Part shown: piece by piece, positions 26,342 through 55,879 of the stretch
How positions within the stretch are numbered: position 1 is the stretch's first letter
Layout: each line of letters starts with the position of its first letter
NCBI GenBank assembly: GCA_003022435.1
Contig: PXUA01000015.1
Coordinates: 186,001-250,000 of the forward strand
Direction: 5' to 3'
Length of the DNA stretch: 64,000 nucleotides
DNA from: Bacteroidetes bacterium SW_9_63_38
GTDB lineage: Bacteria; Bacteroidota; Rhodothermia; Rhodothermales; Salinibacteraceae
Notes under the pieces: model-generated
Seen by the model: the letters and a program-made list of their open reading frames with translations, nothing else
The model's database searches: none
Told to the model about the DNA's origin: nothing
Translations under genes and position numbers: made by a program

Positions 26342-27025
26342 TCACGAGGTGTTCGCCGTTCGGACCCCGCCCGCCAGAATACGGACGGCCTCCCGCCCGT
26401 AGTTGAAAGCGAGATCCAGGGCTGTCATCCCCGGCTCGAAGCCCTCAAAATTCTGGCGATACGTCGGATGGTCGTACGCAAACGACTGGACCTCTACTCG
26501 GGAACGGTCTACATCGGATCCGTCCACCGTCCCCTCTTCCGGCACTACGAGCACATCTCCCTCCACCGCCGCCGCAATGCCAGCGTACGTGTTCGGCGCC
26601 CCGTCCAGCATCGAGGCTCTTGACAGCGCAGTGCTCAGCCCAAAGAGCTCCGCCTGCAGCTCCACCGACCGACACGTACAATTCGCCAGTTCCGTCCATT
26701 CCTGAGCGTAGAAGGTTCGGAAGCGCTCCGCGAAGTACTCGAAGTACATCGTGGACCGGTAGTCGTACTTGAACGAGCGCCAATGCTTTTCCCGCCAGCG
26801 GCCGCCCGTTTCGATGTCGACCGTGTGAATCGGTGCCCCCTCCGGCCGGCCGAAGACAGGAATCCGAATCCAATGTCCCCCCGGCGCGTTGCGGAGTTTG
26901 CTACGGTTCTGGAACGTTTTCCGACGATAGGGGAACGTGTCGGCGAGAATAAAGTGCTCCACGTGTTGCAACAGCGCGGTGTGGGCCAGGGACGGAAAGT
27001 ACGCCGGGGGCTGAATCGCGATCAT
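26342..27025 (-). CDS. WbqC-like family protein
   Basis: This 227-residue protein begins MIAIQPPAYFPSLAHTALLQHVEHFILAD, matching WbqC-like proteins (IxQPxYxPWxGxF type), with FQNRSKLRNAPGGHWIRIPV near residue 37. The family is found in surface-glycan clusters and is suspected to act in sugar modification, but the reaction is not established. The ATG at 27025 is the natural start; the upstream frame is non-homologous. It is divergent from cruF. Confidence 0.82.
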   Translation of the reverse strand: MIAIQPPAYFPSLAHTALLQHVEHFILADTFPYRRKTFQNRSKLRNAPGGHWIRIPVFGRPEGAPIHTVDIETGGRWREKHWRSFKYDYRSTMYFEYFAERFRTFYAQEWTELANCTCRSVELQAELFGLSTALSRASMLDGAPNTYAGIAAAVEGDVLVVPEEGTVDGSDVDRSRVEVQSFAYDHPTYRQNFEGFEPGMTALDLAFNYGREAVRILAGGVRTANTS

Positions 27026-27359
27026 TTTGTAGAAGCGTGCGTGGGAAGAGCCTGCGGCGGCAGTGTCGTGCACCGACACGGATACACCGATACGGATGTA
27101 TTGACGCCCGTCGCTCACGATCCCGAGGCCGATAGCACCGACGGTTCTTGCCGATTCTTCTTGCCCCAACCATTGGGCTTTGAACCATCGGGCTCTGATC
27201 CCTGCTCTCGACGGCTGAGTCTGTCAGGGTGTCGGACCTCCCTCGGTCAACTACTGCCCTGCTTCAGTCCCACGACTCCCCCCAGTGCGAACCATCCGCA
27301 CCGCCGCCCACCTACACATGTTCGTCTTCGCGTCTCTGCTCACCACGACCTGACGGCCA
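27026..27359. other. Divergent intergenic region between wbqC-like gene and cruF
   Basis: This 334-bp gap must hold the promoters of both divergent genes. I see no RNA gene, repeat or riboswitch. Frames crossing it are extensions of neighbouring frames without family-like sequence. No confident promoter elements can be assigned by eye. Confidence 0.45.
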
Positions 27360-28232
27360 ATGGCTTCGTCCGCCGGATCCGACTCGGACCTCCAGGAAAA
27401 TATTGACCTTCTTTTTCAGTTCTCCTTCTGGCTTTTCGTCGGGTCCATCTGCTTCAGCGTCGCCGGGATGCTGCTCTTGAAGCTCTTCCCGACAGCGATG
27501 GAACTGTTCGGGCCGGTCTATACGAAGCTTGTGAAGACCCCAACCTGGACGTTCATGACGATGCTCGCTATTTTGCCGATCCTCATGTACGGTCCCACGC
27601 TGGGGTGGCGACGCCTGGCGGGCTTTATCGTCTGGGGGTGTGCGATCGGAGCGGCCGGAGAGCTCATCGGCACGACGGGACTTCTAAGCGTGGGCGGCGT
27701 GGTCCTACCGTTCGGCGGGTATCACTACACCGAATGGCTTGGGCCGAAAATTGCCGGACACGTCCCTTACTTCATTCCCCCCTCCTGGTTTGCCATGTCG
27801 ATCGTTTCCCTGGACCTGGCCCGTCGGGTGGTCTCGTCCCGCTGGGGATCTCTACTCCTCGGAACGATCTTTATGGTGCTCTGGGACGTGTCTCTGGACC
27901 CGGCCATGAACAACGCATTCCCGTACTGGAACTACGCCGTCAACGGCTTCTTTTTCGGAATGCCGTTTTCGAACTGGTGCGGCTGGTTTGGGGTAACGCT
28001 CATCATCATGCTCGGGTATGAGGGGCTTCGTGGAGATCACGAGATCCAGAACGACTGGGCACCGGTCGTATACGCCCTCAATTGCCTATTTCCGCTTTCG
28101 ATCTCGCTGCTTCGGGATCTGTACCTGGCGTCGCTGGTCGGCGCGGTCGCCATGGCTGTTCCATTGGTTCTGCTGTGGCTCGCCGATCCGGCCATCGTCC
28201 ACCGATCAATTGCTGTCGCACGCTCCTCGTGA
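27360..28232 (+). CDS. cruF: Carotenoid 1',2'-hydratase CruF-like membrane protein
   Basis: This 290-residue protein has seven or more membrane segments and the DUF422/CruF signatures: GAAGELIGTTGLLSVGGV near residue 97, PFGGYHYTEWLGPKIAGHVPYFIPPSWFAM near residue 118, LWDVSLDPAMN near residue 179 and YWNYAVNGFFFGMPFSNWCGW near residue 194. CruF hydrates the psi end of gamma-carotene-type carotenoids, giving a 1'-hydroxyl. The cluster with crtB, an acyltransferase and a GT2 glycosyltransferase fits acylated carotenoid glycosides such as salinixanthin. The related bisanhydrobacterioruberin hydratase is an alternative substrate class. Confidence 0.88.
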   Translation: MASSAGSDSDLQENIDLLFQFSFWLFVGSICFSVAGMLLLKLFPTAMELFGPVYTKLVKTPTWTFMTMLAILPILMYGPTLGWRRLAGFIVWGCAIGAAGELIGTTGLLSVGGVVLPFGGYHYTEWLGPKIAGHVPYFIPPSWFAMSIVSLDLARRVVSSRWGSLLLGTIFMVLWDVSLDPAMNNAFPYWNYAVNGFFFGMPFSNWCGWFGVTLIIMLGYEGLRGDHEIQNDWAPVVYALNCLFPLSISLLRDLYLASLVGAVAMAVPLVLLWLADPAIVHRSIAVARSS

Positions 28233-28636
28233 GCATGCACAATTGAACCGGCAAATATCATCGATTACAGAACACGGTCGATTCCATTCTCTCCGGCGAC
28301 GATTTTCTCGTCCTCATCCACAAACGGCAGACCCATGCCGGCCCCCCAAACACCTCGGCGCTCTCCGCGCTCATCAGAATAGTTGTGCGCGATCACGAAA
28401 GTCGAAGATACTGGACGCCGAATTGAGAGCGACGCTTCGAACGATCCCTTCAGCGCCCTGACGGCCCTCCAGCACCCAGTGCTCTGCTTGGCATGAAAAC
28501 TTGACGCGCCCCTACCCGTGCCCGTAGAACGACTTTCCTCGAACGCCTTGGAGGCCGTCCCTTCAGACAAGCACACCGCTTCCCGGGACGGCTCCTCACT
28601 CACTCGCGCCTCTCACGCAGCTTCTCACGGATCGGT
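28233..28636. other. Intergenic interval upstream of crtB, no gene recognised
   Basis: The 404-bp gap separates cruF from crtB on the same strand. A leftward 112-codon open frame (28265-28603) ends in a coding-like stretch (GLPFVDEDEKIVAGENG), but matches no family I know and lacks a convincing start. It might be a gene remnant. The length suggests crtB has its own promoter rather than reading through from cruF. Confidence 0.4.
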
Positions 28637-29545
28637 ATGTCCACGGCCACCCTCGACACCCGCGCCGACGAGGACGAGTGGATCTGGGAGTCCTTTCGGT
28701 ATCACTCCCGCACCTTTTCTCTGGCGGCGAAGTTTCTGCCCCGGTCGGTGCAGATGCCCATTGCTACGCTCTATCTGTTTTGCCGACGGGTGGATTCGAT
28801 CGCCGACCAGCGTGTTCTGGAGGTCGGCCCGGAGCAGGCCCTCGACGAGGTGCGGACGGTCCAGCGCCGCCTCGATGCGACGCTGGCCGGCCGTCCCCCC
28901 ACCGACGAGGTACTCTGGCGCCGTCTCGGAGAAGTCCATGAGCGTTACGACCTAGACCGGGATTCGCTCGAGGAATTGATTAAGGGAGCCGTCTGGGACC
29001 TTGAGGACCGCCCCATCGAGACGCAGCAGGACCTCATCGACTACTCGAACCTCGTGGGCGGGAGCGTGGGGGCCATGATGCTGCCATTTCTGAGCGCCGA
29101 GGACCATCACGACTCGCTGGAAGCGGCCGCTCGGGAGCTCGGGATCGCGATGCAGATCACGAACATCGTGCGCGATGTGGGGGAAGACATCGAAGAACTC
29201 GACCGCGTCTACCTACCGTCCGGCTGGATGCGGGAGTACGGTGTGGCGCGGTCGGCCCTAGAGGAGGGACGTTGCTTGGACGGCTACCCGGCCCTTCTGG
29301 AACAGGCCATGGCCCTGGCGGAAGATCGGTACCGGAGCAGTGCCTCGGGCATCGCGGCACTTCCCTTCCGCACCCGGGTCGGGATTCGGGCTGCCGCCCG
29401 AATGTATCGGGAAATCCTGAACGAGGTGCGCGCCAACAGGTACGACAACCTAAACCGACGTGCGTACGTCTCGATGGGCCGGAAACTGGTGCTCGTGGCG
29501 TACGACAGCTACGACGGGCGTCGAGCGCGGCTCCGGGCAGGATAA
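28637..29545 (+). CDS. crtB: Phytoene/squalene synthase family, likely phytoene synthase
   Basis: The 302-residue protein has the trans-isoprenyl-diphosphate synthase motifs of head-to-head condensing enzymes. YHSRTFSLAAKFLP near residue 22, LYLFCRRVDSIADQ near residue 46 (first Asp-rich region, here RRVDSIAD), and QITNIVRDVGEDIEELDRVYLP near residue 174 (second Asp-rich region) are visible. It joins two geranylgeranyl diphosphates to phytoene, the entry step to C40 carotenoids. Squalene synthase is the alternative, but the carotenoid context favours CrtB. It heads a tight rightward run of four genes ending at 32151. Confidence 0.9.
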   Translation: MSTATLDTRADEDEWIWESFRYHSRTFSLAAKFLPRSVQMPIATLYLFCRRVDSIADQRVLEVGPEQALDEVRTVQRRLDATLAGRPPTDEVLWRRLGEVHERYDLDRDSLEELIKGAVWDLEDRPIETQQDLIDYSNLVGGSVGAMMLPFLSAEDHHDSLEAAARELGIAMQITNIVRDVGEDIEELDRVYLPSGWMREYGVARSALEEGRCLDGYPALLEQAMALAEDRYRSSASGIAALPFRTRVGIRAAARMYREILNEVRANRYDNLNRRAYVSMGRKLVLVAYDSYDGRRARLRAG

Positions 29546-29635
29546 TCTGTGGGGAGTTTCTCCGCGCCGTCTCTCCGCCGGAACGCCGCCCGGCGCACCC
29601 CACACGCTCCCGTTTCACTCTCCCCCTACGCCCCC

Positions 29636-30313
29636 ATGGACCCCGTTCCGTGGCTCGTGGAAAGGCTCTTGCGATTCGACCTGCGCGGCGCCTTCCGGCG
29701 CGTGTGCTGGATCGGGGATTGGCCGCCCGACCTGCCCGACGCCCCCGTCATTGCGTACGCCAACCATCACCACTACTTCGACGGCCATCTCGGGTGGCTC
29801 CTCTTCACCGAGGTCCTGGATCGCTCGTCGACCCTCTGGATGGCCGACTGGGACCGGTTTCCGTTTTTCGGCGCCATCGGGGCCCAACCGTTTCCCCCCG
29901 ACGCTCCGGACCGGCGCGCCGCCACGCTCCGTCGCACCGCCCGCCGGTTCCGGGCCACCCCCGACACCGTGCTCATCTACTATCCGGAAGGGGAACTCCG
30001 CACCCCGGACGGCGGCATCGAGCCATTCGATCCCGACGCCTTGCAGCGCCTCGCGCGCCTTTACCCGAACGCCCACTGGTGGCCCTTCGCCCTGCACGTC
30101 ACCTGGGAGGGCCACGCGCGCCCCACGGCGCTCCTCACCGGCGGCCCGCCCCATGCCCTCGACGGCTCCGAACACGATCGTCTGACTGATTTGTGGTCGT
30201 TCCTCCGCGCACCGGCCCCGTCCCCGGAACGGGTACTCCTCCAAGGCCGACGGAGCGCCGCGGAAACGTGGAGCTTTTCGTTTGCGGCTCCGTTCTTCAA
30301 GCGGTACTTGTAA
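29636..30313 (+). CDS. PlsC-like (LPLAT) acyltransferase in carotenoid cluster
   Basis: This 225-residue protein shows the glycerolipid-acyltransferase motifs: HX4D in YANHHHYFDGHLG near residue 42, and a block III-like YYPEGELRTPDGG near residue 120. There is no obvious membrane span. It lies 90 bp after crtB and 31 bp before the next gene, inside the carotenoid run. In green sulfur bacteria the LPLAT-like enzyme CruD acylates carotenoid glucosides, so the likely role here is fatty acylation of the carotenoid glycoside (salinixanthin carries a branched fatty acyl group on its sugar). Phospholipid acylation remains an alternative. ATG at 29636 is used; the frame upstream to 29549 is non-homologous. 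Confidence 0.85.
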   Translation: MDPVPWLVERLLRFDLRGAFRRVCWIGDWPPDLPDAPVIAYANHHHYFDGHLGWLLFTEVLDRSSTLWMADWDRFPFFGAIGAQPFPPDAPDRRAATLRRTARRFRATPDTVLIYYPEGELRTPDGGIEPFDPDALQRLARLYPNAHWWPFALHVTWEGHARPTALLTGGPPHALDGSEHDRLTDLWSFLRAPAPSPERVLLQGRRSAAETWSFSFAAPFFKRYL

Positions 30314-30344
30314 GATTTCCCGTACGGACCTTCCCTTCGCCGGC

Positions 30345-30971
30345 ATGCTGTACCTGCTGGTCCTCCTCATGTCGCTCCATGCCTCCTTCGCCGACCGCGT
30401 GCAGGACGCATACGCCCGCGAGGACGCCGACGCGCTCCGCACGCTCCTGCAAGACGCGGACACCCGCACCGACTCGCTGCTGGTGCGCTACCGACTGTAC
30501 CCACTTACGGAAAATGCCGATCTGGTCAACGATCTTCCCGAGACCCTCGACGATGGCACGGCCCGGGAGTGGGCACTGCTATCGGGACTGTGGTCGTACC
30601 GGGCCGGGGAGGCGTCCCTCTTCAATGCCGTGACGTATGGCCGCCGTTCCGCCAACCTGTTGGAAACGGCCCAGTCGATCGATCCGGACGATCCGTACGT
30701 GCTCCTCATCGGCGGGCAATCCCTCCTGTTCCGTCCCGCCGTCGCCGGGAAGGACTCGGATGCCGCCGCCCAGCAATTCGACCAACTGGCCGAATTGGCC
30801 GAACAGAACAAGACCGACGGCATTCCGCCGGTGGAAGCATACCTCTGGAAGTGGCTCGCGCTGAAAGAAGCCGATCGTCCCGACGATGCCCAGGCGCTTC
30901 ACAAACAGTTGGGAAGTCGGACCTTGGCCCCGCTGTACCAGCAGTTCATCGACGATCCGCCGGACGTATAG
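30345..30971 (+). CDS. Exported helical (TPR-like) protein in carotenoid operon
   Basis: This 208-residue protein has a short hydrophobic N-terminus (LYLLVLLMSLHASFA) resembling a signal peptide with cleavage after the Ala at about residue 16. The rest is helical with TPR-like spacing (LLETAQSIDPDDPYVLLIGGQSLLF, DAAAQQFDQLAELAEQN, YLWKWLALKEADRPDDAQAL). It lies 31 bp after the acyltransferase and 49 bp before the glycosyltransferase, so co-transcription is very likely. No function is known. An accessory role in assembling or transporting the glycolipid carotenoid is only an inference from position. Confidence 0.75.
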   Translation: MLYLLVLLMSLHASFADRVQDAYAREDADALRTLLQDADTRTDSLLVRYRLYPLTENADLVNDLPETLDDGTAREWALLSGLWSYRAGEASLFNAVTYGRRSANLLETAQSIDPDDPYVLLIGGQSLLFRPAVAGKDSDAAAQQFDQLAELAEQNKTDGIPPVEAYLWKWLALKEADRPDDAQALHKQLGSRTLAPLYQQFIDDPPDV

Positions 30972-31020
30972 ATCGACGCTCACGTGCGCACCGATATTCT
31001 TCGTTCTTCCTCCTCTTGCC

Positions 31021-32151
31021 ATGCTTGAGGGTCCCCTTTGGATCTGGCTTACGGGCCTCGCGGTGCTCCTGCACGTTGGATTGTGGGGCGTGTTGCTGTC
31101 CAACCTCGTGTACCTATGGGCCCGCTCGGCACCGTCCGTGGGGACCTCCCCTGCCGTGTCCATCTGCATTCCGGCCCGGAACGAAGCGGAGAACCTGCGC
31201 CGTCTGCTGCCGAGCCTGCTCGACCAGAACTACCCCGATCTGGAGATCATCGTCTGGGACGACGGGTCCGAGGACGAGACGTGGGAGGTGCTGCAGTCGT
31301 TCGACGCGCCGTCGCTAACCGTCGCGCAGGGGGACGGCCCGCCTGAGGGCTGGATCGGGAAGGTGCACGCCCTCTATCAGTGCACACGTCGCGCCTCGGG
31401 CGACCGTTACCTGTTTCTGGACGCCGACACCGCTCTGACTCGTTCCGACGCCCTCCGCCGGCTGGTGGAACAGCATGAAGCCGCCGAGTCGTGTGTCAGC
31501 ACCGGCCTCCCCCGCCTCCGCGGCGGCGCCCAACTGCTGGTCAGCCTCGTCCCATACGCACTCCTCACCGGACTCCCGTGGCCCCTGGTGCCCCGCACGT
31601 CTCTGCCCGGTCTGAGCGCCCTCAACGGCCAGTGCTGGTGCGTCGACGCGAGCCTCTACCACACCTACGAGCCGCATGCGACTCTCAAAAACGCAGTCCT
31701 CGAAGATGTCGGCATCGGGCGATACCTCAAAGCACAGGGGCACCCGCCCGTCCTGCTTGCCATCACTGATCTCGTGTCCGTTCATATGTACGAGGATCTC
31801 CGCGATGCCTGGCAGGGATTTCGGAAAAACGCGTACCTGCTCCTCGGAGGAGCACCGCTTCCATTCCTTGTTACCTACGGGTACTTTCTCTTGACGTGGC
31901 TGGTTGCCCCGCTCCTCTCTCTCTGGCTTCTCGCGTCGCTCTACGGACTGAAGGCCCTCACCGATCGCGTGAACGGCATTCCGGCCGCCGTCGCACTTTT
32001 CGCTCCGCTGTCATTTGCCCTGGGCCTAATCTTGCAGTTCGACTCCGCTGTGCACCACTGGACCGACCGCGTGACCTGGAAGGGGCGACCGGTGCCGTCC
32101 TCCCAACACGCGTCTCCACCGTCCGTAGACGCCTCCACGGAACAAGCGTGA
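31021..32151 (+). CDS. Membrane GT2 glycosyltransferase, carotenoid glycosylation (CruG/CruC-like)
   Basis: The 376-residue protein has an N-terminal membrane helix (residues ~6-30), a GT2 catalytic domain with VSICIPARNEAENLRRLLPSLL near residue 45, IIVWDDGSEDETWE near residue 77 and the DxD-type FLDADTALT near residue 137, then two or three C-terminal membrane helices. This layout matches the carotenoid glycosyltransferases CruG and CruC. Its place in the crtB/acyltransferase run and near cruF supports transfer of a sugar to the hydroxylated carotenoid end. Whether the 1' or 2' hydroxyl is used cannot be read from sequence. Confidence 0.85.
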   Translation: MLEGPLWIWLTGLAVLLHVGLWGVLLSNLVYLWARSAPSVGTSPAVSICIPARNEAENLRRLLPSLLDQNYPDLEIIVWDDGSEDETWEVLQSFDAPSLTVAQGDGPPEGWIGKVHALYQCTRRASGDRYLFLDADTALTRSDALRRLVEQHEAAESCVSTGLPRLRGGAQLLVSLVPYALLTGLPWPLVPRTSLPGLSALNGQCWCVDASLYHTYEPHATLKNAVLEDVGIGRYLKAQGHPPVLLAITDLVSVHMYEDLRDAWQGFRKNAYLLLGGAPLPFLVTYGYFLLTWLVAPLLSLWLLASLYGLKALTDRVNGIPAAVALFAPLSFALGLILQFDSAVHHWTDRVTWKGRPVPSSQHASPPSVDASTEQA

Positions 32152-32565: not shown

Positions 32566-33501
32566 GTGAACCGCCCTCCGCCCCTTTGCCCAGGGGATGC
32601 CGTGGCCGTTGTGGCCCCGGCCAGCCCCCCCCGTTCCCTGGCAAATTACCGAAACGGCCTCGACCGACTCCGGGCCCTCTATGACGTGCGGTCGGCGTGG
32701 ACCCCCGGCCGCGAACGCGGCTACCTCGCCGCGCCCGACGCCGAACGCGTTGAGTGCCTGGAGGCGGCCATCGCAGATCCGGGGGTTCGCGGCATCATCT
32801 GCGTGCGCGGCGGCTACGGTTGTCTCCGCCTGTTGCCGCACCTCGACTGGTCCCTCGCCGCGGCCCACCCGACGCTCCTGGTCGGCTACAGCGACATCAC
32901 GGCTCTGCACCTCGCCTACTACGCCCGCGCAGACTGGAGCGGCCTCTCCGGCCCCGTCGCCACCGAATGGGACAAACTCGACGAGGACTCGCTTCACTCG
33001 TACCGCGCCCTCGCGGAGGGGAACACCCCCTCACTGGACGCGCCGTCGTTGTCCCCACTTCGTTCCGGCACCGCCACCGGCCCCCTCCTCGGCGGCAACC
33101 TATCGGTGCTCGTCCACTTACTTGGCACTCCATTTGCTCCAGAGTGGGACGGCGCTATTCTTGTGCTCGAAGATATTGCCGAGGCTCCCTACCGCGTTGA
33201 CCGTATGCTCGGACATCTGGATCAGGCCGGGGTCCTCACCGCCGTGGGCGGCGTCGTTCTCGGGGACTTCGGCAGCGCCCCCGACCCTTCGGACGCTCCG
33301 TCCCTCGCCCTTGAAACCGTGTTCGACAATTACTTCGGAAACCGATCCTACCCCGTGGCCACCCAACTTCCGTACGGCCACCGATTGCCGCGCTGTACTC
33401 TCCCGATTGGAAGCGTGGTACAACTGTCAACCGGAACCGACGACGCAGACCTGACGGTCCGCCGCCCGGCGGTGGCCACGCCTGAGGATGCCTCCCCCTA
33501 A
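32566..33501 (+). CDS. LD-carboxypeptidase (peptidase family S66)
   Basis: The 311-residue protein matches cytoplasmic muramoyl-tetrapeptide LD-carboxypeptidases, which trim recycled peptidoglycan peptides. GDAVAVVAPASPP near residue 8, IICVRGGYGCLRLLPHLDW near residue 75, and LLVGYSDITALHL near residue 105 with the nucleophile Ser are present. ILVLEDIAEAPYRVDRMLGHL near residue 205 holds the catalytic Glu, and LPYGH near residue 270 the His. Translation appears to start at a GTG at 32566, since no in-frame ATG gives the family N-terminus. Confidence 0.92.
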   Translation: MNRPPPLCPGDAVAVVAPASPPRSLANYRNGLDRLRALYDVRSAWTPGRERGYLAAPDAERVECLEAAIADPGVRGIICVRGGYGCLRLLPHLDWSLAAAHPTLLVGYSDITALHLAYYARADWSGLSGPVATEWDKLDEDSLHSYRALAEGNTPSLDAPSLSPLRSGTATGPLLGGNLSVLVHLLGTPFAPEWDGAILVLEDIAEAPYRVDRMLGHLDQAGVLTAVGGVVLGDFGSAPDPSDAPSLALETVFDNYFGNRSYPVATQLPYGHRLPRCTLPIGSVVQLSTGTDDADLTVRRPAVATPEDASP

Positions 33502-39926: not shown

Positions 39927-40024
39927 GTGCAGCTTCAAACGATCTTTTGGGGAAAGCAGTTTGCTATTGCTCCAAGCTCCAGCTTGAGGTATGGACGGAC
40001 GAGGTCCGTCCAAAGCTCGATTGC
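39927..40024 (-). repeat. Partial transposon/MITE end, relative of the element at 55880-56001
   Basis: These 98 bp match the 3' part of the 55880-56001 element at about 97% by eye (three substitutions noticed). They end with the terminal sequence TTGAAGCTGCAC on the - strand. Both copies can encode the same short C-terminal tail (AIEL..DL.RPYLKLELGAIA) stopping inside the terminal repeat, which suggests descent from the end of a transposase-type gene. The open frame continues to about 40168, but no second terminal repeat was found. The outer boundary abuts the carbonic anhydrase gene directly. Confidence 0.75.
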
Positions 40025-40335
40025 TCGATCATGAGAGTACTGATACGTGAACGGGTTTCTAAACACGATCTCTGCTGATAGCACAATACGGTCTTCCCTA
40101 CACGGAGAAAGTTGTTTACCTACCTGTGTACGGATCAGCAAGAGGGTTGGAAAACAATTCTTCGACACCGGAATGCGTGAATCGGCCGGGAGATCCTTTC
40201 TCGTTCTTGCCCCCGCTCCCGAAACGTCGCAGAACTCCGACGTGCCTGGAACCCCTGCGGAGTGTCGGCAATACGAGCGCTCCTATCGGGTTCATACGTT
40301 GGTGCTCTCATTCTGCCCCGTTCTTCTTTTCCGTT

Positions 40336-40692
40336 ATGATAGAGGTTTTGATTCTCGACGCCCAGGAACTTGCCCAGCGCCAGATGGGCGCTCAAGCCAT
40401 GCAGGCCGGGGCCATGGGCGGCACCAACATCGAAACGGCCGTCCGCAACCAGATGAAGGACCAGCTCCGAAAGGGCCTGGCCGGCCGCGGCATCGAGACG
40501 ACGATCGCGTCGAAAGGGTCGCAGGGGCTGGAGATCACCATCGACGACCCGGCCAAGGCCGCCTGGAATCAGGGCATGATGGCGTGGCTGGTGGCGAAGG
40601 TGATGCCGAGTTCCATCGAGTACAGCATTGCGCCGTCCATCCGGGAGACGTTGGAGGAAAGCGGGATTGAGGGGGAGGTGGAGGTGACGTAG
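40336..40692 (+). CDS. Small protein, unknown
   Basis: This 118-residue protein starts at an ATG at 40336 (MIEVLILDAQELAQRQMGAQ). It has a Met/Gln/Gly-rich N-terminal helix, a basic middle (RNQMKDQLRKGLAGRGIETT) and an alternating strand/helix C-terminus (GLEITIDDPAKAAWNQGMMAWLVAKVM). No known domain or signal is seen. It lies between the transposon end and the glycan island. Coding bias suggests a real gene. Confidence 0.6.
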   Translation: MIEVLILDAQELAQRQMGAQAMQAGAMGGTNIETAVRNQMKDQLRKGLAGRGIETTIASKGSQGLEITIDDPAKAAWNQGMMAWLVAKVMPSSIEYSIAPSIRETLEESGIEGEVEVT

Positions 40693-40762
40693 CCTTCAGT
40701 CGCTACGAACCTCTTCTAAAATTAGTGACGCTTGCTATAAGCCCGTGCTCCAGGGTTCTATA

Positions 40763-41599
40763 TCAATACGACCACCACTCCTTGACCCCGAGTAACTCAT
40801 AAAGCTTCCGATTGTGGGGTTCAAAGAAATCCTCCAGCTCTTTCCGCATCGGCACTTCCTTTTTATAGTTTCCCCTCCCATACTTCTGAGTAATTTGTAG
40901 ATCCCTTTGCTCAATCCCCAACCACTCAAAGATTGAGTTCACAAACCCGTTTGGATCCGAAAATAAGTCCTCACTCCTGAGTACAAGCAATTGATCACCG
41001 TACACTTTCTTAAAACGTCGTATCTGAGGTGCGTAAATGCCCCGCCTCACGTAAGAGTGAAAAATGTCCTCATACTCGCTCCGCCCGATTACTCGATTCT
41101 CGCGTGCAAATCGGATATCAGCCTGCACAGCCTCCTCAAAAGAACGAGGATCGGCCCCCCAGTTGCCCATTCCTCGCTGCACATGGTTGTACTGTGAATA
41201 CGCCCGTGAAACAGGGTCCCGAAGCACAGCGATCAGCTTCGCTTCCGGAATCAAACGAGACATCCGCCAAAGCGTGTTCTCGTCAAAAATGTAGTCGGGC
41301 GTGGCCTCAAGTGAAATTCTGTTTCCTTGCAGGTCAAAATTGCTTCGGTACCAAAGACGGTGCTTTTTATACTCAAGGTTAAAATAGTGTAGCTCTTTGG
41401 AGAGGGCTCCTCCAATCCGCGGATGCTGACAAAGATAGTGATACAAAGAAGTAGTTCCTCCCTTTTGGGTCCCAATGATAACCACGTTGGGAAGCTCCCG
41501 TAACGGAGAGGTTGCTAAACGCCATGTCTTCTCTGCTCTTTCCAATAACCGCTTTCCCATGAGTGCAAAGTCTTCTGCTATCTTTCGAAACGTACTCAT
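40763..41599 (-). CDS. PAPS-dependent sulfotransferase (island copy 1)
   Basis: The 278-residue protein has the 5'-phosphosulfate loop VVIIGTQKGGTTSLYHYL near residue 38, with the Lys that contacts PAPS. The 3'-phosphate-binding segment IAVLRDPVSRAYSQYNH is near residue 123, and a KELHYF segment near residue 68 is typical of carbohydrate (heparan-type) sulfotransferases. It should transfer sulfate from PAPS to a sugar hydroxyl or amine. The gene has visibly lower G+C and more Lys/Ile/Asn codons than its surroundings, consistent with recent transfer. It follows the GT2 gene on the same strand. Confidence 0.88.
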   Translation of the reverse strand: MSTFRKIAEDFALMGKRLLERAEKTWRLATSPLRELPNVVIIGTQKGGTTSLYHYLCQHPRIGGALSKELHYFNLEYKKHRLWYRSNFDLQGNRISLEATPDYIFDENTLWRMSRLIPEAKLIAVLRDPVSRAYSQYNHVQRGMGNWGADPRSFEEAVQADIRFARENRVIGRSEYEDIFHSYVRRGIYAPQIRRFKKVYGDQLLVLRSEDLFSDPNGFVNSIFEWLGIEQRDLQITQKYGRGNYKKEVPMRKELEDFFEPHNRKLYELLGVKEWWSY

Positions 41600-41839
41600 G
41601 GTCGTTGTGCTGACTTCGAGTCAGGACATTTCAACTCAGCAAACGGGACAGGTCTAAGAATCCTATAGTTGAGTCGTTCTCTTTTCTCAAGGCGAGGAGA
41701 AAAACTCAATCCTTATACGGAATCCGACTCGTGATGTCGGGGACACGGAGGCTGCAATCAGCCCCGAATGGAGCGAACCGCCGTTTTTCAAGACAGAGCA
41801 TCCGCCATCGCCCATCGGATTTAGTATTAGAGCCTTGCC

Positions 41840-42829
41840 TCAGAACGAATCTCGGGACGAATCGCTGCGGGTGAAGGACCAAAAAAACGACCGTAGTTTT
41901 CCCAAACTCCGAAGCACAACACGCGGGAAAAAGGATGCCGCGCCGAATAGCCAGGCCCGCCAGTAGGTAGGATGATGTCGAATCGCTGTACAAAACATTT
42001 TGAGGGCTTGAAGCCGCCTCTCCCGATCCAGCCACTTCCGACCTAGATTGGTGTATAGATTGGCGAAGACGGAAGACTTTAATTCCGAAAGCCGCTCGGG
42101 ATGGTTGCGAAATGCCTTCTCAATAGTGGCACGACGCCCCCGAAGGGCTAAGTCCAAGTCCATTGTACTCGTGGATTTGCTAGCGTGCTGGTAACGCCGA
42201 ACCAAGGGACGATCGATGTAGCCCACCGAATACTGAGCCGCAACCCGAAGTGAAAACTCCCAGTCCTCCGCAACTCCGATGTGATAAATTTCTGCCTCAT
42301 CGTGCATGCCCACTTTCTCGAAGACATCTTTGTGAAATAACTCCGTGGAAGGAGGAATGAAAAGCCGTCCAATTAAGGGACGAAGAACGTCTCCGTCTTG
42401 ATTGTCCATTACTTGATCGGCCCGGCAAATTGTCTTCCCGGTGGACTGGTCGACCTGGAGCCAGTTGGTATAGCTCCACATGAGTTCGGGATTGGACTGG
42501 TGAAGAACAACCTGTTGTTCTAATTTTTCGGGAACCCACTCATCGTCGGCATCGAGCAAACCGATATAGGTCCCGCGCGCTTCCCGAATCCCCACGTTCC
42601 GCGCTGAAGCTGCCCCCCCATTTTCTTTCTGGAGATAGCGAACAGGGTCGTCGTACGGCTCCATCACCTGAGGGGTCTCGTCGGTAGACCCGTCGTCGAT
42701 TACGATCACTTCGACGTTGGAATACGTCTGGTCAAGCACGCTCTCGACGGCCCGCGGAAGGAATGCTGCCGCGTTATAAGCCGGAATAATAACACTGACG
42801 AGGGGATCCTCAGCGGTGCTACTAGACAT
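41840..42829 (-). CDS. GT2-family glycosyltransferase
   Basis: The 329-residue protein has a GT-A fold: VSVIIPAYNAAAFLPRAVESVL near residue 11, VIVIDDGSTDETPQV near residue 40, ENGGAASARNVGIREARG near residue 69, and the metal-binding LLDADDEW near residue 91. The second half includes the acceptor-side AEDWEFSLR near residue 186. There is no membrane segment, so it acts at the cytoplasmic face. It probably adds one sugar to a surface glycan. It is divergent from the second sulfotransferase gene. Confidence 0.92.
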   Translation of the reverse strand: MSSSTAEDPLVSVIIPAYNAAAFLPRAVESVLDQTYSNVEVIVIDDGSTDETPQVMEPYDDPVRYLQKENGGAASARNVGIREARGTYIGLLDADDEWVPEKLEQQVVLHQSNPELMWSYTNWLQVDQSTGKTICRADQVMDNQDGDVLRPLIGRLFIPPSTELFHKDVFEKVGMHDEAEIYHIGVAEDWEFSLRVAAQYSVGYIDRPLVRRYQHASKSTSTMDLDLALRGRRATIEKAFRNHPERLSELKSSVFANLYTNLGRKWLDRERRLQALKMFCTAIRHHPTYWRAWLFGAASFFPRVVLRSLGKLRSFFWSFTRSDSSRDSF

Positions 42830-42960
42830 GGGTACACGGCTTATGTGTGGTACAGGCTTTCAACCCAATGAACAGAGTCATGAACCTCATTCTCTCTTCC
42901 ATGTTCGGTGAGGCCTCTCCCTTACGTTTTGATTTTCAGCGTTCTCCCCCCCTCTCTTTC

Positions 42961-43794
42961 ATGTCGGCGCTTCGCGAAAAACTTGTTGACGCAATTCGTC
43001 CCCTTCTCGTAGCGGGAGCACGCTGGGGAACGCCCCGCCTCAACCTTCGCGACATCGATCCTGTTTTGGTCCTCGGCAATCAGAAAACTGGGTCGACGGC
43101 CATTGCCGAATTACTCGCCCAGTACGGGGACCTCTGGGCAACGACCGACCTACACCCACTCCAGTCTTCCGCCCCCCAAATCGAAAACGACCCAGCATTT
43201 GTTGCGCGCCTCATTCAACGACTCCGCTATTACCTCCGAGGGGACCTAATCAAGGAAAACGAACTCACGGTCGCGACCGATGCCCTACTTGAAGCTCTTC
43301 CCCGCGCACGTCCCGTGTTTGTCGTTCGCCATCCTGTTCAAAACGTCCGAAGTATCCTCGACCGGTTGAGCTTACCGGGACAACCTCTTCCATTCGAGCG
43401 CCTCGGCCTTTCAGGAAATGGCTGGGAGCGCATTGTGCGGGGTCATGACTATGGTATCGAGGCTGAAAACCACATTACATCTCTTGCTGTACGATGGTGC
43501 CGCACAGCAAAAATATACCTACGTCATTCGGAACGACTACATTTGGTGCGCTACGAGGATTTCGTGAGTGACAAGCTCGGGACTATCAGCAGCCTTGCCA
43601 ATCAACTTGGCATCCAGCAAAAAAAAGACATCAGGCCGTTTCTGGACGTACCGTTCCAGCCACGGGGCGACAATCGAGCGACACCGCCGCAGACTTTCTT
43701 CTCGGAGCAGGCCCTCGACATCATTCACAACCGGTGTCGCAGAGAAATGGACGCTCTCGACTATGAACCAATTCTAGACTCGTCGGCTGAATGA
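42961..43794 (+). CDS. Sulfotransferase-like protein (island copy 2)
   Basis: The 277-residue protein has a PAPS loop VLVLGNQKTGSTAIAELL near residue 35 and a 3'-phosphate-binding segment FVVRHPVQNVRSILDRL near residue 120, then VRYEDFVSD near residue 198. These identify the sulfotransferase superfamily, although the rest is divergent from copies 1 and 3. The start is uncertain: ATGs at 42868 and 42961 are possible, and 42961 fits the usual spacing to the PAPS loop. Its stop overlaps the deacetylase start (ATGA), so the two are translationally coupled. Confidence 0.82.
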   Translation: MSALREKLVDAIRPLLVAGARWGTPRLNLRDIDPVLVLGNQKTGSTAIAELLAQYGDLWATTDLHPLQSSAPQIENDPAFVARLIQRLRYYLRGDLIKENELTVATDALLEALPRARPVFVVRHPVQNVRSILDRLSLPGQPLPFERLGLSGNGWERIVRGHDYGIEAENHITSLAVRWCRTAKIYLRHSERLHLVRYEDFVSDKLGTISSLANQLGIQQKKDIRPFLDVPFQPRGDNRATPPQTFFSEQALDIIHNRCRREMDALDYEPILDSSAE

Positions 43795-44891
43795 TTGCCT
43801 CTCTCCGTCCCATTCTACTTCGCACCGCCCGAGCAGCCGGCCTGTTTTCGGCGATGCGCTTCCAGCATCGCCACCAGTTGCTCGTTCTCACCTACCACAG
43901 TGTAGTGCAGAACATCCAGGAAGAACGCAGTCGCTACCCGCTCGTGTACCGGAACGCGGTCTCTGCCAATCACTTCGAGCAGCAGATGCAATACCTGCGA
44001 CGGTACTACACCGTGCTTGACGGTGACGAACTCCGCACCGGCCTCGCCCACGGCTCCTTCCCCGCCCGCGCGGTGATTGTAACCTTCGACGACGGTCTCC
44101 TCAACAATGCAACCGTGGCCCTGCCGATTCTGCGACGGCTCAACATTCCCGCGCTGTTCTTTCTTCCAACTGGCTTCGTGGATGCGGCTTCTGAAAACAC
44201 CCTACGCCGACACTGGACGGAGGATCTCATCGCTCGTCTCAGTTACCGACGCTTGGACGATGCATTCGAGAGCCGCGCCCTGACCACGCATCTTCCGAAA
44301 CTGACCGTCGAATTGGACAACCTTTCGCTGGCCTCAATTCGTGTGGTCGTGGAGCACTTAAAAAGACTGCCCCGTCAGACGCGCCTCAGCCGTCTCTCAG
44401 CTCTTACGGATGTGCTCGGAGATCTGCCCCCTGCCACTGCCTTCCCGGCCGACCGGGATGGACACTCGGTCCTGGCGACCATGACCTGGGACCACGCCCG
44501 GCGGGCTGCGAATCAAGGCATCACGCTCGGCGGGCACACGGTTAACCACGAAAATCTGGCCCGGCTTCCCGACGACGAGGCTGCCACTGAAATCACCGAG
44601 TCCTTGCAGTCCCTCACCGAGAACACTGAACAATCTGCTGACTTCTTTTCCTATCCCTACGGTCGTCCCCGTGACTTCACGACCGTGCATCAAAAGGTTC
44701 TCGCCGATACGAAATGCCGGGGAGCCTTCACGCAAGTCGTTGGGTTTAACGATGCCTCCACCGACCCGCTTGCTCTCCGTCGAATTGACGTCTCGCCTGG
44801 CTATTCGATTGATATGTTTGCTTACGTCGCCAGTGGTAGCAAACACATGGTTGACCGTGCGATTCGAGATCAATCATCCGCGTCGACGTAG
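43791..44891 (+). CDS. Polysaccharide deacetylase (NodB homology, CE4)
   Basis: The 366-residue protein has the NodB-type core: LLVLTYHSVV near residue 30, the catalytic Asp-Asp in AVIVTFDDGLLNN near residue 94, the zinc His pair in GGHTVNHENLA near residue 247, and FFSYPYGRPRD near residue 285. It removes acetyl groups from N-acetylated sugars in a glycan. No clear signal peptide is seen. The four-base overlap with the upstream sulfotransferase suggests de-N-acetylation and sulfation act on the same polymer. The last 18 nt overlap the convergent glycosyltransferase gene. Confidence 0.9.
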   Translation: MIASLRPILLRTARAAGLFSAMRFQHRHQLLVLTYHSVVQNIQEERSRYPLVYRNAVSANHFEQQMQYLRRYYTVLDGDELRTGLAHGSFPARAVIVTFDDGLLNNATVALPILRRLNIPALFFLPTGFVDAASENTLRRHWTEDLIARLSYRRLDDAFESRALTTHLPKLTVELDNLSLASIRVVVEHLKRLPRQTRLSRLSALTDVLGDLPPATAFPADRDGHSVLATMTWDHARRAANQGITLGGHTVNHENLARLPDDEAATEITESLQSLTENTEQSADFFSYPYGRPRDFTTVHQKVLADTKCRGAFTQVVGFNDASTDPLALRRIDVSPGYSIDMFAYVASGSKHMVDRAIRDQSSAST

Positions 44892-45956
44892 CTCATTTAA
44901 GAGGCGGACAAGCCGCGTCTCCCGCTGGTCCATCGAGAACTGTTCAACAATCCGAGCCCGGGACGCTCGTCTTCGCTCACCGTTGCCACCCAGCTCTTCG
45001 CGAATTGTCTCTGCAATCCGCTCTGGATCTGGTCGCTGCACAACGCCTCCGGTATCTCCCACCAGGTCCGGGGGCTGCCCCACAGCACTGACGACTGGAA
45101 TGCACCCAGAAAGCATCGCCTCTCCCACGACGAGCCCGAATGCTTCGACGCGAGAAAGCTGAGCGTAGACGGAGGCATTCTGGTATACAGTAGAGAGATG
45201 ATCGCGTGGTCGAGGCGGAGACAGAGTCACATTGTTAGGGATCGTTTCCTTGCTCCGAAGCTCAGCGGCAAAGTTCCCCGAGACACCCACGACCCGAAAG
45301 TCGACATCCGGCATGCGACGTGCAGCCGCCAGAAAAAGATCGATGCCCTTCACCTTGTACGTACGCCAGGAATCAAGAAATGCCACCGTAACCACCCTGG
45401 AAGCTCGCTCCACCGGACCCATCGGCCAGTCGCCCGGCCGAAAGCCCAGTGGGACAACCGGGTGTGGCGTCTGCAAGTCGGGTACGTGAATCCGAATGCC
45501 GTTCCTTCGTCGCTCCGGCCAATTCGAAAACTGCTCTTCGGCCTCGATGAGGGTCGGAGAAACAGTAGGTAAGGAATCGGCCCGTCTCACAATCCACCGG
45601 ACGAGTGGAGCCCGCCACCGGCTGTCCCAAACGCCGTAGTCATACTCCGGGAGCCAGTTGCAGTCCATGCCGCCGAGCATCACAGCGACTGGCACGTCGA
45701 ACCAACGGGCGAGCAGGGTCGGAAGAGCAACGTGATGGTCCGCAAACCAGCCAAACACGAGATCCGCGTCCGGAAGCTCTTCCAGCAGCCATTCTCCCTG
45801 CCGTATCCAGAGTCGTATCAGTCCCCTTGCCGAGGCCGCCTTCTCCGCGTCGAAGTGAAACGCCCGAACGTCAAAATGGCGCCGTAGGAGGGCCAATTCA
45901 TCCTCCACAAAAGAGGTGAACCCCATGTGGCTGAAGAGAAGACTGGGACGCGCCAT
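44874..45956 (-). CDS. GT4-type (GT-B) glycosyltransferase
   Basis: The 360-residue protein shows a GT-B layout. The C-terminal nucleotide-sugar domain has VVTVAFLDSWRTYKVKGIDLFLAAARR near residue 187 and the E-x7-E pattern in RVEAFGLVVGEAMLSGCIPVVSA near residue 274. The N-terminal domain is variable (VFGWFADHHVALP near residue 67). It probably extends a surface glycan from a nucleotide sugar in the cytoplasm. The next gene on the same strand upstream is the ABC exporter, whose stop lies 23 bp before this start. Confidence 0.88.
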   Translation of the reverse strand: MARPSLLFSHMGFTSFVEDELALLRRHFDVRAFHFDAEKAASARGLIRLWIRQGEWLLEELPDADLVFGWFADHHVALPTLLARWFDVPVAVMLGGMDCNWLPEYDYGVWDSRWRAPLVRWIVRRADSLPTVSPTLIEAEEQFSNWPERRRNGIRIHVPDLQTPHPVVPLGFRPGDWPMGPVERASRVVTVAFLDSWRTYKVKGIDLFLAAARRMPDVDFRVVGVSGNFAAELRSKETIPNNVTLSPPRPRDHLSTVYQNASVYAQLSRVEAFGLVVGEAMLSGCIPVVSAVGQPPDLVGDTGGVVQRPDPERIAETIREELGGNGERRRASRARIVEQFSMDQRETRLVRLLNELRRRG

Positions 45957-45979
45957 AGAGCAGTAACCTCGCCAAGCAT

Positions 45980-47782
45980 TTAAGAAAGTGCCATAGAACG
46001 AAACTTGGAATGCTCCTCCATGAGGTTATCGTAGCTTCCTTCGCCCACCTTCTCCCCCCTTTCCAGCATAAAGATTTTATCGGCTCGCTTTACGGTGCTC
46101 AACCGGTGCGCAATTACGAGAATAGTGTGATCCTCCTCCAGATCATAAATCGCCTCCATCACATCGGCTTCCGTCGACTGGTCGAGGGCACTCGTGGCCT
46201 CGTCGAAGACGAGCACAGACGGGCCGTGGAATAAGGCCCGGGCGATGCCGATACGCTGGCGCTGTCCCCCAGAGAGCCGAACGCCCCGCTCTCCGACGAC
46301 CGTGTCCCATTTCTCCGGAAGCTCATTTTCAATAAACGATCGGATGTGAGCCCGGCGGGCTGCCTCTCGAACCGCCGCCATGTCGATCTCGCCCGGCGGC
46401 ACTCCGAATGCGATATTGCGGGCGACGCTGTCGTCGGATAGGTAAATGTCCTGGGGCACGTACCCGATGCTTCGCTGCCAGCGTCGTATGTTGTCTTCCC
46501 GAAGAGGCACCCCGTCAACCGAAACTGTCCCGCTCTGCGGACGAAGCAAACCAAGAATGAGATCAACCGCTGTCGTCTTTCCAGATCCAGTCTGCCCCAC
46601 GAACCCGGTGGTTGTTTGAGCTGGGATCTTTAGTGATAGATCTCTAATCGCTGGCTGTTCGGCTTCTGGATAAGTGTAGCTCACATTCTGCAGAACAAGT
46701 GCCTCTTTTAAAGGAAGAGGACTCCTATCATCAGCCCGATGCCAGTCCGCATCACGGTTCTCTGCATCAAACTGATCTTTCAGATCTTGGTGCAGCCGAT
46801 CCAACGCCGCCACGTTGAAACGCGCACTGGCTAATCCATGAAAGGCTTCTTGCAAAGCTGGAAGCAAGCGGTACCCTGCGAATGCATACAACCCCAAAAT
46901 GGGCAGCACCTTCTGGATGCTCTCCTGAACTGCGATAAGGTAGACAGCAATGAGAATAATCCCTCCAAATGCTACGGCCTCGATGATATACCGGGGCGCC
47001 TTCCTGAGTACACGGTAGAGTGACTGACTCTTCGCATACTGCTTCGACGGGTCATCATACTGATCGAGAAATGCCTCCTCCTTACCGAGAACTTTCACTT
47101 CCTTAATGCCCCCGAATGCCTCCCCAACATACTGGTACCGCTGTGAATTGGAGGATACTCGAATCTCACCCTTCCGATCAAGCTGGTCGCGGACAACGGC
47201 ATAAACGATCGCATACGCCACTCCCAACACCGTCGCCACCATTAACGCAACGATCGGATCGAAATACACCAGAAAGCTAATCATGAAGAATGCCACGACT
47301 GCCTTCGCAATGCCCCTGAGGGCAGGCTTCAGCATATTACTCGTGACCTCCTTCACTTCCTCCAAAATGGTCTTCCCCAGCTCCGCACTGTTCTGTGTGA
47401 GAAAATACTCGTAGGGACGATAGAGATAACTGCGAAGCAGACGACGCGAGAGACTATGGTTACGCCCCCAGGCGTAGCGCTCCATCACCCACCTCGTGAG
47501 GATGATGAACGCATTACTCAGAACCAGAATTACAAACGCCACCATCCCCAACGCAATCAGAAATGATCGGGTATCGGCAAACCCAAACGTCTCATAAGAC
47601 CAACTCAGGTAGGCATTCTCCTGAATGATTGACGGATTGGATGCAACCTGCAGAAACGGCATAATGGAAGCTACACTGGCCACTTGTAGTCCGGCCATTA
47701 TGAGAACAGCAACAAACACAATGGCGAGATTGCGCCGCTCCCGCCGCGTCAAAAGGGCGTAGAGCTTCCGAAGGGTGTCCAT
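45980..47782 (-). CDS. MsbA-like ABC exporter (fused TMD-NBD)
   Basis: The 600-residue half-transporter has six membrane helices (residues ~15-330) and a C-terminal ATPase with Walker A GFVGQTGSGKTTAVDLILG near residue 388, signature LSGGQRQRIGIARAL near residue 500, Walker B SVLVFDEATSALDQ near residue 521 and the switch His in LVIAHRLSTV near residue 553. It should work as a homodimer and export a lipid-linked glycan or lipid. Its place among glycosyltransferases supports flipping of a surface-glycan precursor. ATG at 47782 (MDTLRKLYALLTRRERRN) is the family-like start. Confidence 0.93.
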   Translation of the reverse strand: MDTLRKLYALLTRRERRNLAIVFVAVLIMAGLQVASVASIMPFLQVASNPSIIQENAYLSWSYETFGFADTRSFLIALGMVAFVILVLSNAFIILTRWVMERYAWGRNHSLSRRLLRSYLYRPYEYFLTQNSAELGKTILEEVKEVTSNMLKPALRGIAKAVVAFFMISFLVYFDPIVALMVATVLGVAYAIVYAVVRDQLDRKGEIRVSSNSQRYQYVGEAFGGIKEVKVLGKEEAFLDQYDDPSKQYAKSQSLYRVLRKAPRYIIEAVAFGGIILIAVYLIAVQESIQKVLPILGLYAFAGYRLLPALQEAFHGLASARFNVAALDRLHQDLKDQFDAENRDADWHRADDRSPLPLKEALVLQNVSYTYPEAEQPAIRDLSLKIPAQTTTGFVGQTGSGKTTAVDLILGLLRPQSGTVSVDGVPLREDNIRRWQRSIGYVPQDIYLSDDSVARNIAFGVPPGEIDMAAVREAARRAHIRSFIENELPEKWDTVVGERGVRLSGGQRQRIGIARALFHGPSVLVFDEATSALDQSTEADVMEAIYDLEEDHTILVIAHRLSTVKRADKIFMLERGEKVGEGSYDNLMEEHSKFRSMALS

Positions 47783-47917
47783 ACTAGGCTCGGTTGGCCG
47801 ACCTCGGCTGTATGGTGGAGAAGGGTGTGTTGGATGATGCCGTTTCACGAGTTGAACGCCCAAAAGCGTTCCGACGTTCACAAATTATCCCTGCTTTGCT
47901 CCTCCGACCACAAACTG

Positions 47918-49228
47918 TCAGACGACCGTTTCCAAAATTGACGTCAAATCTTCGGTCTGTGAACGCCGGCGGTAGAGACGCACCTGCTTGGCGGAAGCGC
48001 CCGAAAGTGCTTCCCCATCGGTCCAGGACTCATGGTGCTGACGAACAAATGCAAGACACCCATCCACATCTTGCCAACCAAAAAGCCGTCCCCCCTCCGT
48101 TTCCCGAAGCAATTCCGCTGCATCCCCGTCGGGATTTCCCACTCCCAAGATGGGTCGGCCTGCCGCAAGGTACTCATAGATCTTCCCCGTCAGCATTCCT
48201 TCAGACGCCGGAAACTCTTCAATCGAAAGTAGCAGTAGGCCGGCCTGCCGCATGTAATCCACCGCTGTGGCGTGCGGCACGTACGACACTGTAGTGGTAA
48301 TGTCCGTAAGTCCAAAGCGGCGGAGTGAGGCGGTCACGTTCGGGGCCACGCTCCCCACCAATCGGAGTCGCAACTTGGGGACGGCATTCTGCTCGCGTAG
48401 GCGTCTCAGCGCCGCCCAAAGTCCGTCTGGATTCCGAGATGCATAAAGAGAACCTACGTGCGTTACCTCAAAAGTGTCCGTTGCGGGCTCGGTCTGTCCC
48501 GGCGAGATATCTTCCTCATCGAAGCCATTCTGGACCACAGCGACCGCCTCTCCATCATTCTGACCCCGCTTTTCTAAGAGTAAATCCCGCCACGTTGGGC
48601 TCACCGTCGTTACCGTCTGTGCTCGCCGGAGCACCATCCGTTCCAGTGCCGTATCAAGACAACGGGCTGGCCTCGTGTGGGGAAGCTCGTGGTAGTAGTT
48701 GATGTCAGTCCACGGATCGCGAAAATCCGCCACCCAGGGCGTACCGGTGAGATACTGCAGAAGAGCACCGGCCAGATGAGTTGAGTGCGGAGGCCCAGTA
48801 GTAAGGATGGCGTCGTAGTCCCCGTCTGCTAGCAATTGGCGCCCGCTCCACGTCGCAAATGGGACCCAACCCACCCGTGCATCCGGCAAAAAGACATTCG
48901 CGCGTACCCAGCGGGCAAGCGACTCTTTCCAGGTGGACTCCTGTCCCTCCATCGACCCCTGTACGACCGCATCGTCGTCAGACTGCCCCGTGAAACGAGC
49001 ATACAACTGGTACGGGTCCCACGATGCGGTGCGGTGCACGGGCACCTCCGACGGCACATCGTCGCCGAGCGACGGGTCTCGTTCCGGATATGCTCCGTCC
49101 TGCACCGTGAGTACCGACGGCATCCAGCCGAAGTCGGGCAGGTACTTCACAAATTTCAGCATCCGCTGCACACCCGGTCCCCCAGACGGAGGAAAGTAGT
49201 ACGTCAATACCAAAACGCGACGGTCCAT
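47918..49228 (-). CDS. GT4-like glycosyltransferase
   Basis: The 436-residue protein begins with VLVLTYYFPPSGGPGVQRMLKF, the typical N-terminus of GT4 enzymes with a glycine-rich acceptor loop. WVADFRDPWTD near residue 165 and, in the C-terminal domain, FEVTHVGSLYASRNPDGL near residue 258 and GKIYEYLAAGRPILGVGNPDGDAAELL near residue 357 are also characteristic. It transfers a sugar from a nucleotide donor, probably during surface-glycan assembly. It lies 135 bp upstream of the ABC exporter on the same strand. Confidence 0.9.
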   Translation of the reverse strand: MDRRVLVLTYYFPPSGGPGVQRMLKFVKYLPDFGWMPSVLTVQDGAYPERDPSLGDDVPSEVPVHRTASWDPYQLYARFTGQSDDDAVVQGSMEGQESTWKESLARWVRANVFLPDARVGWVPFATWSGRQLLADGDYDAILTTGPPHSTHLAGALLQYLTGTPWVADFRDPWTDINYYHELPHTRPARCLDTALERMVLRRAQTVTTVSPTWRDLLLEKRGQNDGEAVAVVQNGFDEEDISPGQTEPATDTFEVTHVGSLYASRNPDGLWAALRRLREQNAVPKLRLRLVGSVAPNVTASLRRFGLTDITTTVSYVPHATAVDYMRQAGLLLLSIEEFPASEGMLTGKIYEYLAAGRPILGVGNPDGDAAELLRETEGGRLFGWQDVDGCLAFVRQHHESWTDGEALSGASAKQVRLYRRRSQTEDLTSILETVV

Positions 49229-49279
49229 AAGCCTGTCATTCCTCCAAACACCAGCGGTCCCCGATTCCTTTTCCGTTGT

Positions 49280-51814: not shown

Positions 51815-51991
51815 GAACTGAAGGCGTTATTGCGACCGAATTGATGAAACGTGAACCCACCTCTGAGGGCGTATCTCATCAGCCTCCTCCATCGATAAGG
51901 ATCTTCTGCCAGTCATCGAACAATCGCACATAGATCTTCAAGTCCTTCGGGGAAATGGCTGACACACGATCACACAGATCAACATTGCCCC

Positions 51992-52196: not shown

Positions 52197-52233
52197 CATT
52201 GCCCCTCACTTTCAAAAATACTTCCTTACTCCC

Positions 52234-53070: not shown

Positions 53071-53084
53071 AGAGAAATTCCCTT

Positions 53085-55827: not shown

Positions 55828-55879
55828 CCGCGACCGCATTCCGCCAACTGGTAGGAGGCAGAACCGCCTCCGTCGCCTA

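Follow-up and report, generated by a model that had tools for sequence, protein, structure and literature searches.

A conserved carotenoid operon of Rhodothermales encoding a predicted CruD-type acyltransferase and a small helical protein

A five-gene carotenoid cluster was analysed in a 64,000-nucleotide stretch of DNA (the window) from Bacteroidetes bacterium SW_9_63_38 (contig PXUA01000015.1, positions 186,001 to 250,000 of the forward strand, GenBank assembly GCA_003022435.1), whose source assembly (G000) comprises 2.84 Mb and is 84% complete. The genes for a carotenoid hydratase (cruF), phytoene synthase (crtB), a predicted acyltransferase (AT), a small helical protein (SP), and a membrane glycosyltransferase (GT2) all lie on the plus strand, separated by 404, 90, 31, and 49 bp (Table 1), and the cluster at 27360-32151, with gaps of 31-90 bp from crtB onward, was recovered with the coordinates and spacing given in a first-pass annotation made from the sequence alone. 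The TIGR03460 score of CruF exceeded the equivalog cut-off of 154.7 bits, placing the protein in the CruF family, and CrtB was 67-80% identical to most same-genus homologues. The cruF-crtB gap, which measures -4 to 74 bp in most relatives and 309 bp in one, was considered as a repeat or insertion found elsewhere, and this was rejected, as its sequence (28233-28636) had 0 matches in fetched loci of other genomes. Below, G, L, and f numbers denote genomes, fetched loci, and families.

Table 1. Features of the carotenoid cluster and related loci.
Feature	Position	Strand	Basis or remark
cruF, carotenoid 1',2'-hydratase, multi-pass membrane protein	27360..28232	+	PF04240, 127.8 bits; NCBIfam TIGR03460, 264 bits
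crtB, phytoene synthase	28637..29545	+	PF00494 (SQS_PSY), 223.6 bits
AT, predicted CruD-type carotenoid-glucoside acyltransferase, PlsC/GPAT fold, 225 aa	29636..30313	+	AlphaFold, Foldseek, tree, profiles
AT motif NHHHYFDG, residues 43-50, predicted catalytic HX4D	29762..29785	+	alignment of homologues; DG form common to CruD
AT motif EGEL, residues 118-121, block III position	29987..29998	+	Alignment A1; not conserved
SP, small signal-bearing all-helical HusA/tetratricopeptide repeat (TPR)-like protein, 208 aa	30345..30971	+	AlphaFold, Foldseek, profile
GT2, membrane glycosyltransferase, CruC-like, putative sugar addition	31021..32151	+	PF00535 (Glycos_transf_2), 78 bits; DAD and QCW
Xanthorhodopsin, lycopene-cyclase-like open reading frame (ORF), and CrtO-type ketolase, side by side	L211:6628-10230	-	G000:C15, ~64 kb upstream of window, same contig
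CruF-CrtB fusion	L099:9414-11174	-	same fusion in L100, L101
Triple fusions CruF-CrtB-small helical protein, 810-853 aa	L106:2758-5241, L137:16302-18845, L138:9837-12398, L140:9977-12409

The AlphaFold model of AT (predicted local distance difference test, pLDDT, 92.6) was compared with the PDB using Foldseek, which returned GPAT1 (8e4y) as the top match and the sole one with E < 0.001, LpxM ranking fourth among unrelated P-loop folds; the sequence profile of AT had one meaningful match in the PDB, PlsC (5kym, E 7e-4). Residues N43, H44, and D49 were invariant among 36 homologues. The window AT and the probable CruD of Chlorobaculum tepidum both carry the motif as NHxxxxDG, and DG is present in nearly all AT and CruD sequences, whereas PlsC sequences have NHxxxxD[IPM] (DI, DP, or DM) and FPEGTRS at block III; AT and the probable CruD also have in common a C-terminal stretch with a GxxS region. 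Both motifs of the label "HX4D/EGEL-type" proposed in the first-pass annotation are present in AT; the H and D are invariant, but EGEL is not conserved, being replaced by PEG, PAG, PGG, PSG, or PEA in other members (PAGT in Salinibacter ruber). With EGEL in place of FPEGTRS, a PF01553 match under the cut-off, and a separate PlsC in the same genome (L001), AT does not qualify as a PlsC/AGPAT enzyme.

G106 was taken to be C. tepidum TLS, G008 Rhodothermus marinus DSM 4252, and G147 S. ruber DSM 13855. The Fenna-Matthews-Olson (FMO) protein of G106 had 3eni and 3bsd as joint best PDB matches, and the gene at ~911 kb in that genome was presumed to be cruD, since interpolation from fmoA (CT1499) gives ~CT973, close to CT0967, the cruD locus. 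In a tree of 73 sequences (rooted for drawing only), AT, Rhodothermus AT, Balneola AT, and the probable CruD were separated from PlsC and other PF01553 paralogues by a split with support of 100/99. Profile-profile comparison of AT gave E 4e-12 over 209 columns against CruD, taking in the common C-terminal stretch, and E 2e-7 over 144 columns against PlsC, and with an AT profile built without Rhodothermus the E values were 2e-12 for the probable C. tepidum CruD, 3e-13 for R. marinus AT, and only ~2e-4 for housekeeping PlsC. The identity of AT as a housekeeping PlsC was thus ruled out by the tree split, the profile comparisons, and the motif differences; clustering with PlsC, the outcome that the first-pass annotation had set against its own proposal, was not seen. 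Within the AT/CruD side, an exclusive clade of R. marinus AT and Salinibacter AT was rejected by the approximately unbiased (AU) test (p 0.004), and a clade of these two with family f5 and Armatimonadota was acceptable (p 0.38), so the nearer relative of R. marinus AT may be either CruD or Salinibacter AT.

The order cruF-crtB-AT-SP-GT2 on one strand was found in 30 other fetched genomes with seven family codes, so the arrangement is not due to chance; median gaps in these five-gene runs were 26-39 bp, and 4-bp stop/start overlaps were frequent. In S. ruber (G147) the order is identical and AT is 66% identical to that of the window. Of 49 genomes having a close AT, 43 show it immediately next to crtB, as read from coordinates (the others being G096, G283, G294, G295, G309, and G337), and broken operons retain the pairings SP-GT2 (G013, G034, G131), AT-SP-GT2 (G294), and cruF-AT-GT2 (G337). 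A contig search with a single AT protein as query had as its sole match an Armatimonadota metagenome-assembled genome (MAG), in which an AT homologue of 41% identity lies 16 bp from crtB. Synteny, which the first-pass annotation had put forward as a check, thus holds for AT and crtB throughout the order Rhodothermales and beyond, and AT is linked to cruF, crtB, and GT2, as expected of a CruD-type enzyme. In family f34, crtB was matched at the threshold used in about half of 16 genomes, cruF and crtB are present at both fetched loci, and AT and GT2 were found in 0/16 genomes at the thresholds used. At one f34 locus (L107:8522-10405, plus strand), CrtB forms a fusion with a polyprenyl synthase domain (PF00348); cruF immediately precedes this gene and crtI follows it, and AT, SP, and GT2 are not found nearby.

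GT2 had HpnB (110 bits) as its best NCBIfam match and CruG at 65 bits, both under their cut-offs, and its DAD and QCW motifs were conserved among 26 homologues. The GT2 proteins of S. ruber and R. marinus were 57% identical over 335 columns; since PMC5822342 describes an R. marinus CruC, distant from the crt operon, as 57% identical to S. ruber CruC over 90%, the two pairs are very probably the same. In C. tepidum the best match had E 5e-59 and the next 2e-11; the best-matching gene is itself only presumed to be CruC, and the window GT2 has HpnB, not a CruC family, as its best NCBIfam match.

Since AT groups with CruD and not PlsC and is syntenic with crtB, its by far likeliest function, judged from sequence comparison, is that of a carotenoid-glucoside acyltransferase, and the candidacy for the acylation step advanced in the first-pass annotation is supported by the tree, profiles, and synteny. 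Several observations weigh against this assignment: S. ruber AT and C. tepidum CruD are only 24% identical over 156 aa, AT scores 17.9 bits against PF01553 (cut-off 23) and has no conserved EG in block III, the CruD used for comparison is a probable one, identified by gene position (~911 kb) relative to CT0967, the acyltransferase search covered PF01553 alone, among superfamilies that include MBOAT, LpxL, and Acyl_transf_3, and GT2 is kept in the Rhodothermus-type genome G050 without crtB or AT, where it may have another role.

The PlsC fold and the weak Pfam acyltransferase match would also fit an enzyme whose acceptor is a different lipid (lysophospholipid, sulfonolipid, or other glycolipid) and which shares the operon through co-regulation of membrane lipid and pigment, but this is very unlikely in view of the co-conservation of AT with crtB, cruF, and GT2 in several families and a second phylum, its grouping with CruD, the joint absence of AT and GT2 from f34, where cruF and crtB persist at the fetched loci, and the fusion of an acyltransferase to CruF in Thermomicrobium roseum (PMC2615216). 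It is highly improbable that acylation of the sugar falls to PlsC or an unrelated acyltransferase, with AT degenerate or structural, as the variation of block III (PEG, PAG, PGG, PSG) might be read, since HX4D is invariant, an acyltransferase fold is confidently predicted, and PF01553 matches in S. ruber are PlsC and AT, with no others. A broader role is easier to entertain for GT2, which could be a general HpnB-like lipid glycosyltransferase not dedicated to carotenoid glucosylation: HpnB is its best NCBIfam match, orthologues occur in G050, G345, and G348, where a close crtB was not found, and the R. marinus gene is far from the crt cluster. This is nonetheless unlikely, given that GT2 adjoins SP or AT even apart from crtB (G013, G034, G131, G294), is absent in f34 genomes that have cruF-crtB but lack AT, and has one strong C. 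tepidum homologue followed by a far weaker match. Because of its retention in G050, GT2 is assigned to carotenoids with less certainty than AT.

Among the closest known systems is the CruC/CruD pair of C. tepidum (chlorobactene glucosyltransferase and lauroyltransferase), in which, as proposed here, a GT2 enzyme and a PlsC-fold acyltransferase act on a 1'-OH carotenoid; unlike in the window operon, the probable cruC and cruD genes are far apart. The hydratase of C. tepidum is CrtC, not CruF. The first-pass annotation regarded CruC/CruD as the only characterised parallel known to it, and while its inference is sound, it is not new: the T. roseum genome paper of 2009 (PMC2615216) equated a fused hydratase-acyltransferase with two S. 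ruber enzymes, cruF and cruD, and a 2017 study of R. marinus (PMC5822342) listed one gene of the crtB-crtI operon as a homologue of CruD. The T. roseum protein (trd_1162), compared here by its description in PMC2615216, is a CruF with a C-terminal acyltransferase, so that the hydratase and acyltransferase for carotenoid glycosides that form one protein there are separate proteins in the window. In the excerpts of both papers the S. ruber genes are named by homology only, and SP and the order-wide operon structure are not mentioned; for the AT of Salinibacter or of Rhodothermus, no biochemical evidence or experimental test was found. Salinixanthin, a red pigment, is the antenna of xanthorhodopsin, and the gene for its acylation step has been named by inference alone since 2009; given the tree and its conservation throughout the order, the AT assignment is firm enough for testing by one deletion.

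The rhodopsin encoded upstream of the window had xanthorhodopsin (3ddl) as its best PDB match (E 8e-111), the neighbouring CrtO-type ketolase shared 59% identity with its counterpart in a Rhodothermus genome, and the lycopene-cyclase-like ORF was assigned by eye; with these three genes on the contig, synthesis of a salinixanthin-type pigment, a 4-keto monocyclic carotenoid, is plausible for the organism, which also has a protein that uses such a pigment. S. ruber (G147) has four rhodopsin genes. Very likely, the genes of the operon together build the psi-end of a carotenoid glucoside ester of the salinixanthin type. CrtB would condense two molecules of geranylgeranyl diphosphate (GGPP) to phytoene, desaturation and cyclisation would be carried out by genes outside the operon, CruF would add water across the 1',2' double bond, leaving a 1'-OH, the CruC-like GT2 would put a hexose onto this hydroxyl at the inner membrane face, and AT, as a peripheral PlsC-fold enzyme, would place a fatty acyl ester on the sugar by the His-Asp (HX4D) mechanism of its family. 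This scheme builds on the observed gene content, conserved order, catalytic residues, and fold, and on the tree, in which AT stands apart from PlsC and together with CruD. From CruC/CruD and from the chemistry of salinixanthin (Lutnaes et al. 2002, as cited in PMC5822342), we infer the substrates and products of AT and GT2, including for AT the acceptor (carotenoid glucoside), the donor (acyl-acyl carrier protein or acyl-coenzyme A), the acylated position, and the product.

In Rhodothermus genomes, a single ORF of 583-586 aa carries CruF (PF04240, 152.6 bits) and CrtB (PF00494, 216 bits) in frame; the Pfam scan was done on G003, and the fusion in R. marinus (G008) was identified apart from that scan. 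The operon there runs CruF-CrtB, SP-like, AT, crtI, with an adjacent MerR/B12-type regulator. The crtB-crtI operon of R. marinus (PMC5822342), a salinixanthin producer, thus resembles that of the window in joining an SP-like protein, AT, and CrtB, and differs in that CruF is fused to CrtB, GT2 lies elsewhere, and AT falls on another tree branch. The same paper reports R. marinus to lack CruF and CrtC; since both domains occur in one Rhodothermus ORF, the missing hydratase is very probably present, concealed by fusion to CrtB. The encoding of R. marinus CruF as a CrtB fusion is new here, and closes a gap in the published pathway that is relevant to metabolic engineering of this thermophile.

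SP had no family match in the Pfam/NCBIfam scan. Its N-terminus is short and hydrophobic, without positive charges, and the body was modelled as all helix (AlphaFold pLDDT 94.9). Foldseek returned TPR proteins, the haemophore HusA (6bqs, E 0.04), and the sterol transporter BstC (7t1s), every match having E > 0.001; the helical TPR-like fold of the latter two is similar to that of SP, which also carries the HusA motif YGxxSxxxLxxA..QSLLxxPAxfG. A profile that included the R. marinus SP-like sequence matched HusA at E 3e-6 over 49 residues, the single SP sequence at E 0.19, and Pfam TAtT was matched in three SP members (best E 0.011). A Salinibacter-type profile without the R. marinus sequence matched a general TPR paralogue at 8e-17, and since the general 288-aa TPR paralogue of S. 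ruber matches HusA at E 4e-11, better than SP does, a HusA similarity specific to SP was rejected. The TPR-like fold of HusA has a hydrophobic groove in which porphyrin is bound (PMC6173696), and the ligands of BstC are sterols (PMC10942540). The modelled HusA/TPR-like fold suggests that SP may bind a hydrophobic ligand.

Rhodothermus-type clusters have a different small helical protein after CrtB, fused behind it in G030, G273, G281, and G283; between the parts, three of these four fusions have a hydrophobic stretch above threshold, with none in G273. The Salinibacter SP profile without the R. marinus sequence gave no match to the Rhodothermus SP-like protein, and profile-profile comparison of the two gave E 0.0013 with a probability of 18%. 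Clear homology was not established, apparent matches having depended on a profile containing the R. marinus sequence, and the two are best described as positional counterparts of marginal homology. The occurrence of a small exported helical protein together with crtB in both types of cluster is new here, and SP is a previously undescribed operon member. SP is a conserved accessory protein that most likely acts outside the inner membrane, and the fold and the fusions allow the guess that it holds a very hydrophobic product. It is doubtful, though conceivable, that SP is a periplasmic or membrane-anchored "carotenophore" that passes the acylated carotenoid glucoside to xanthorhodopsin or the outer membrane and couples synthesis to export, with a counterpart domain fused to CruF-CrtB in some Rhodothermales; if SP is such a carrier, it may explain how the hydrophobic pigment is handled after synthesis.

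In the window, GT2 is flanked by WbqC (26342-27169, minus strand), beyond the other four genes, and by an LD-carboxypeptidase-like ORF (32566-33501, plus strand). The same two genes flank GT2 in a Rhodothermus-type genome (L121) without the cruF-crtB-AT-SP block, which suggests that the block was inserted or lost beside GT2. Further downstream, positions 40001-56000 have a G+C content of 0.53-0.58, against ~0.63 elsewhere, and contain a further GT2-like ORF (41840-42829, minus strand); this region is possibly a surface polysaccharide island.

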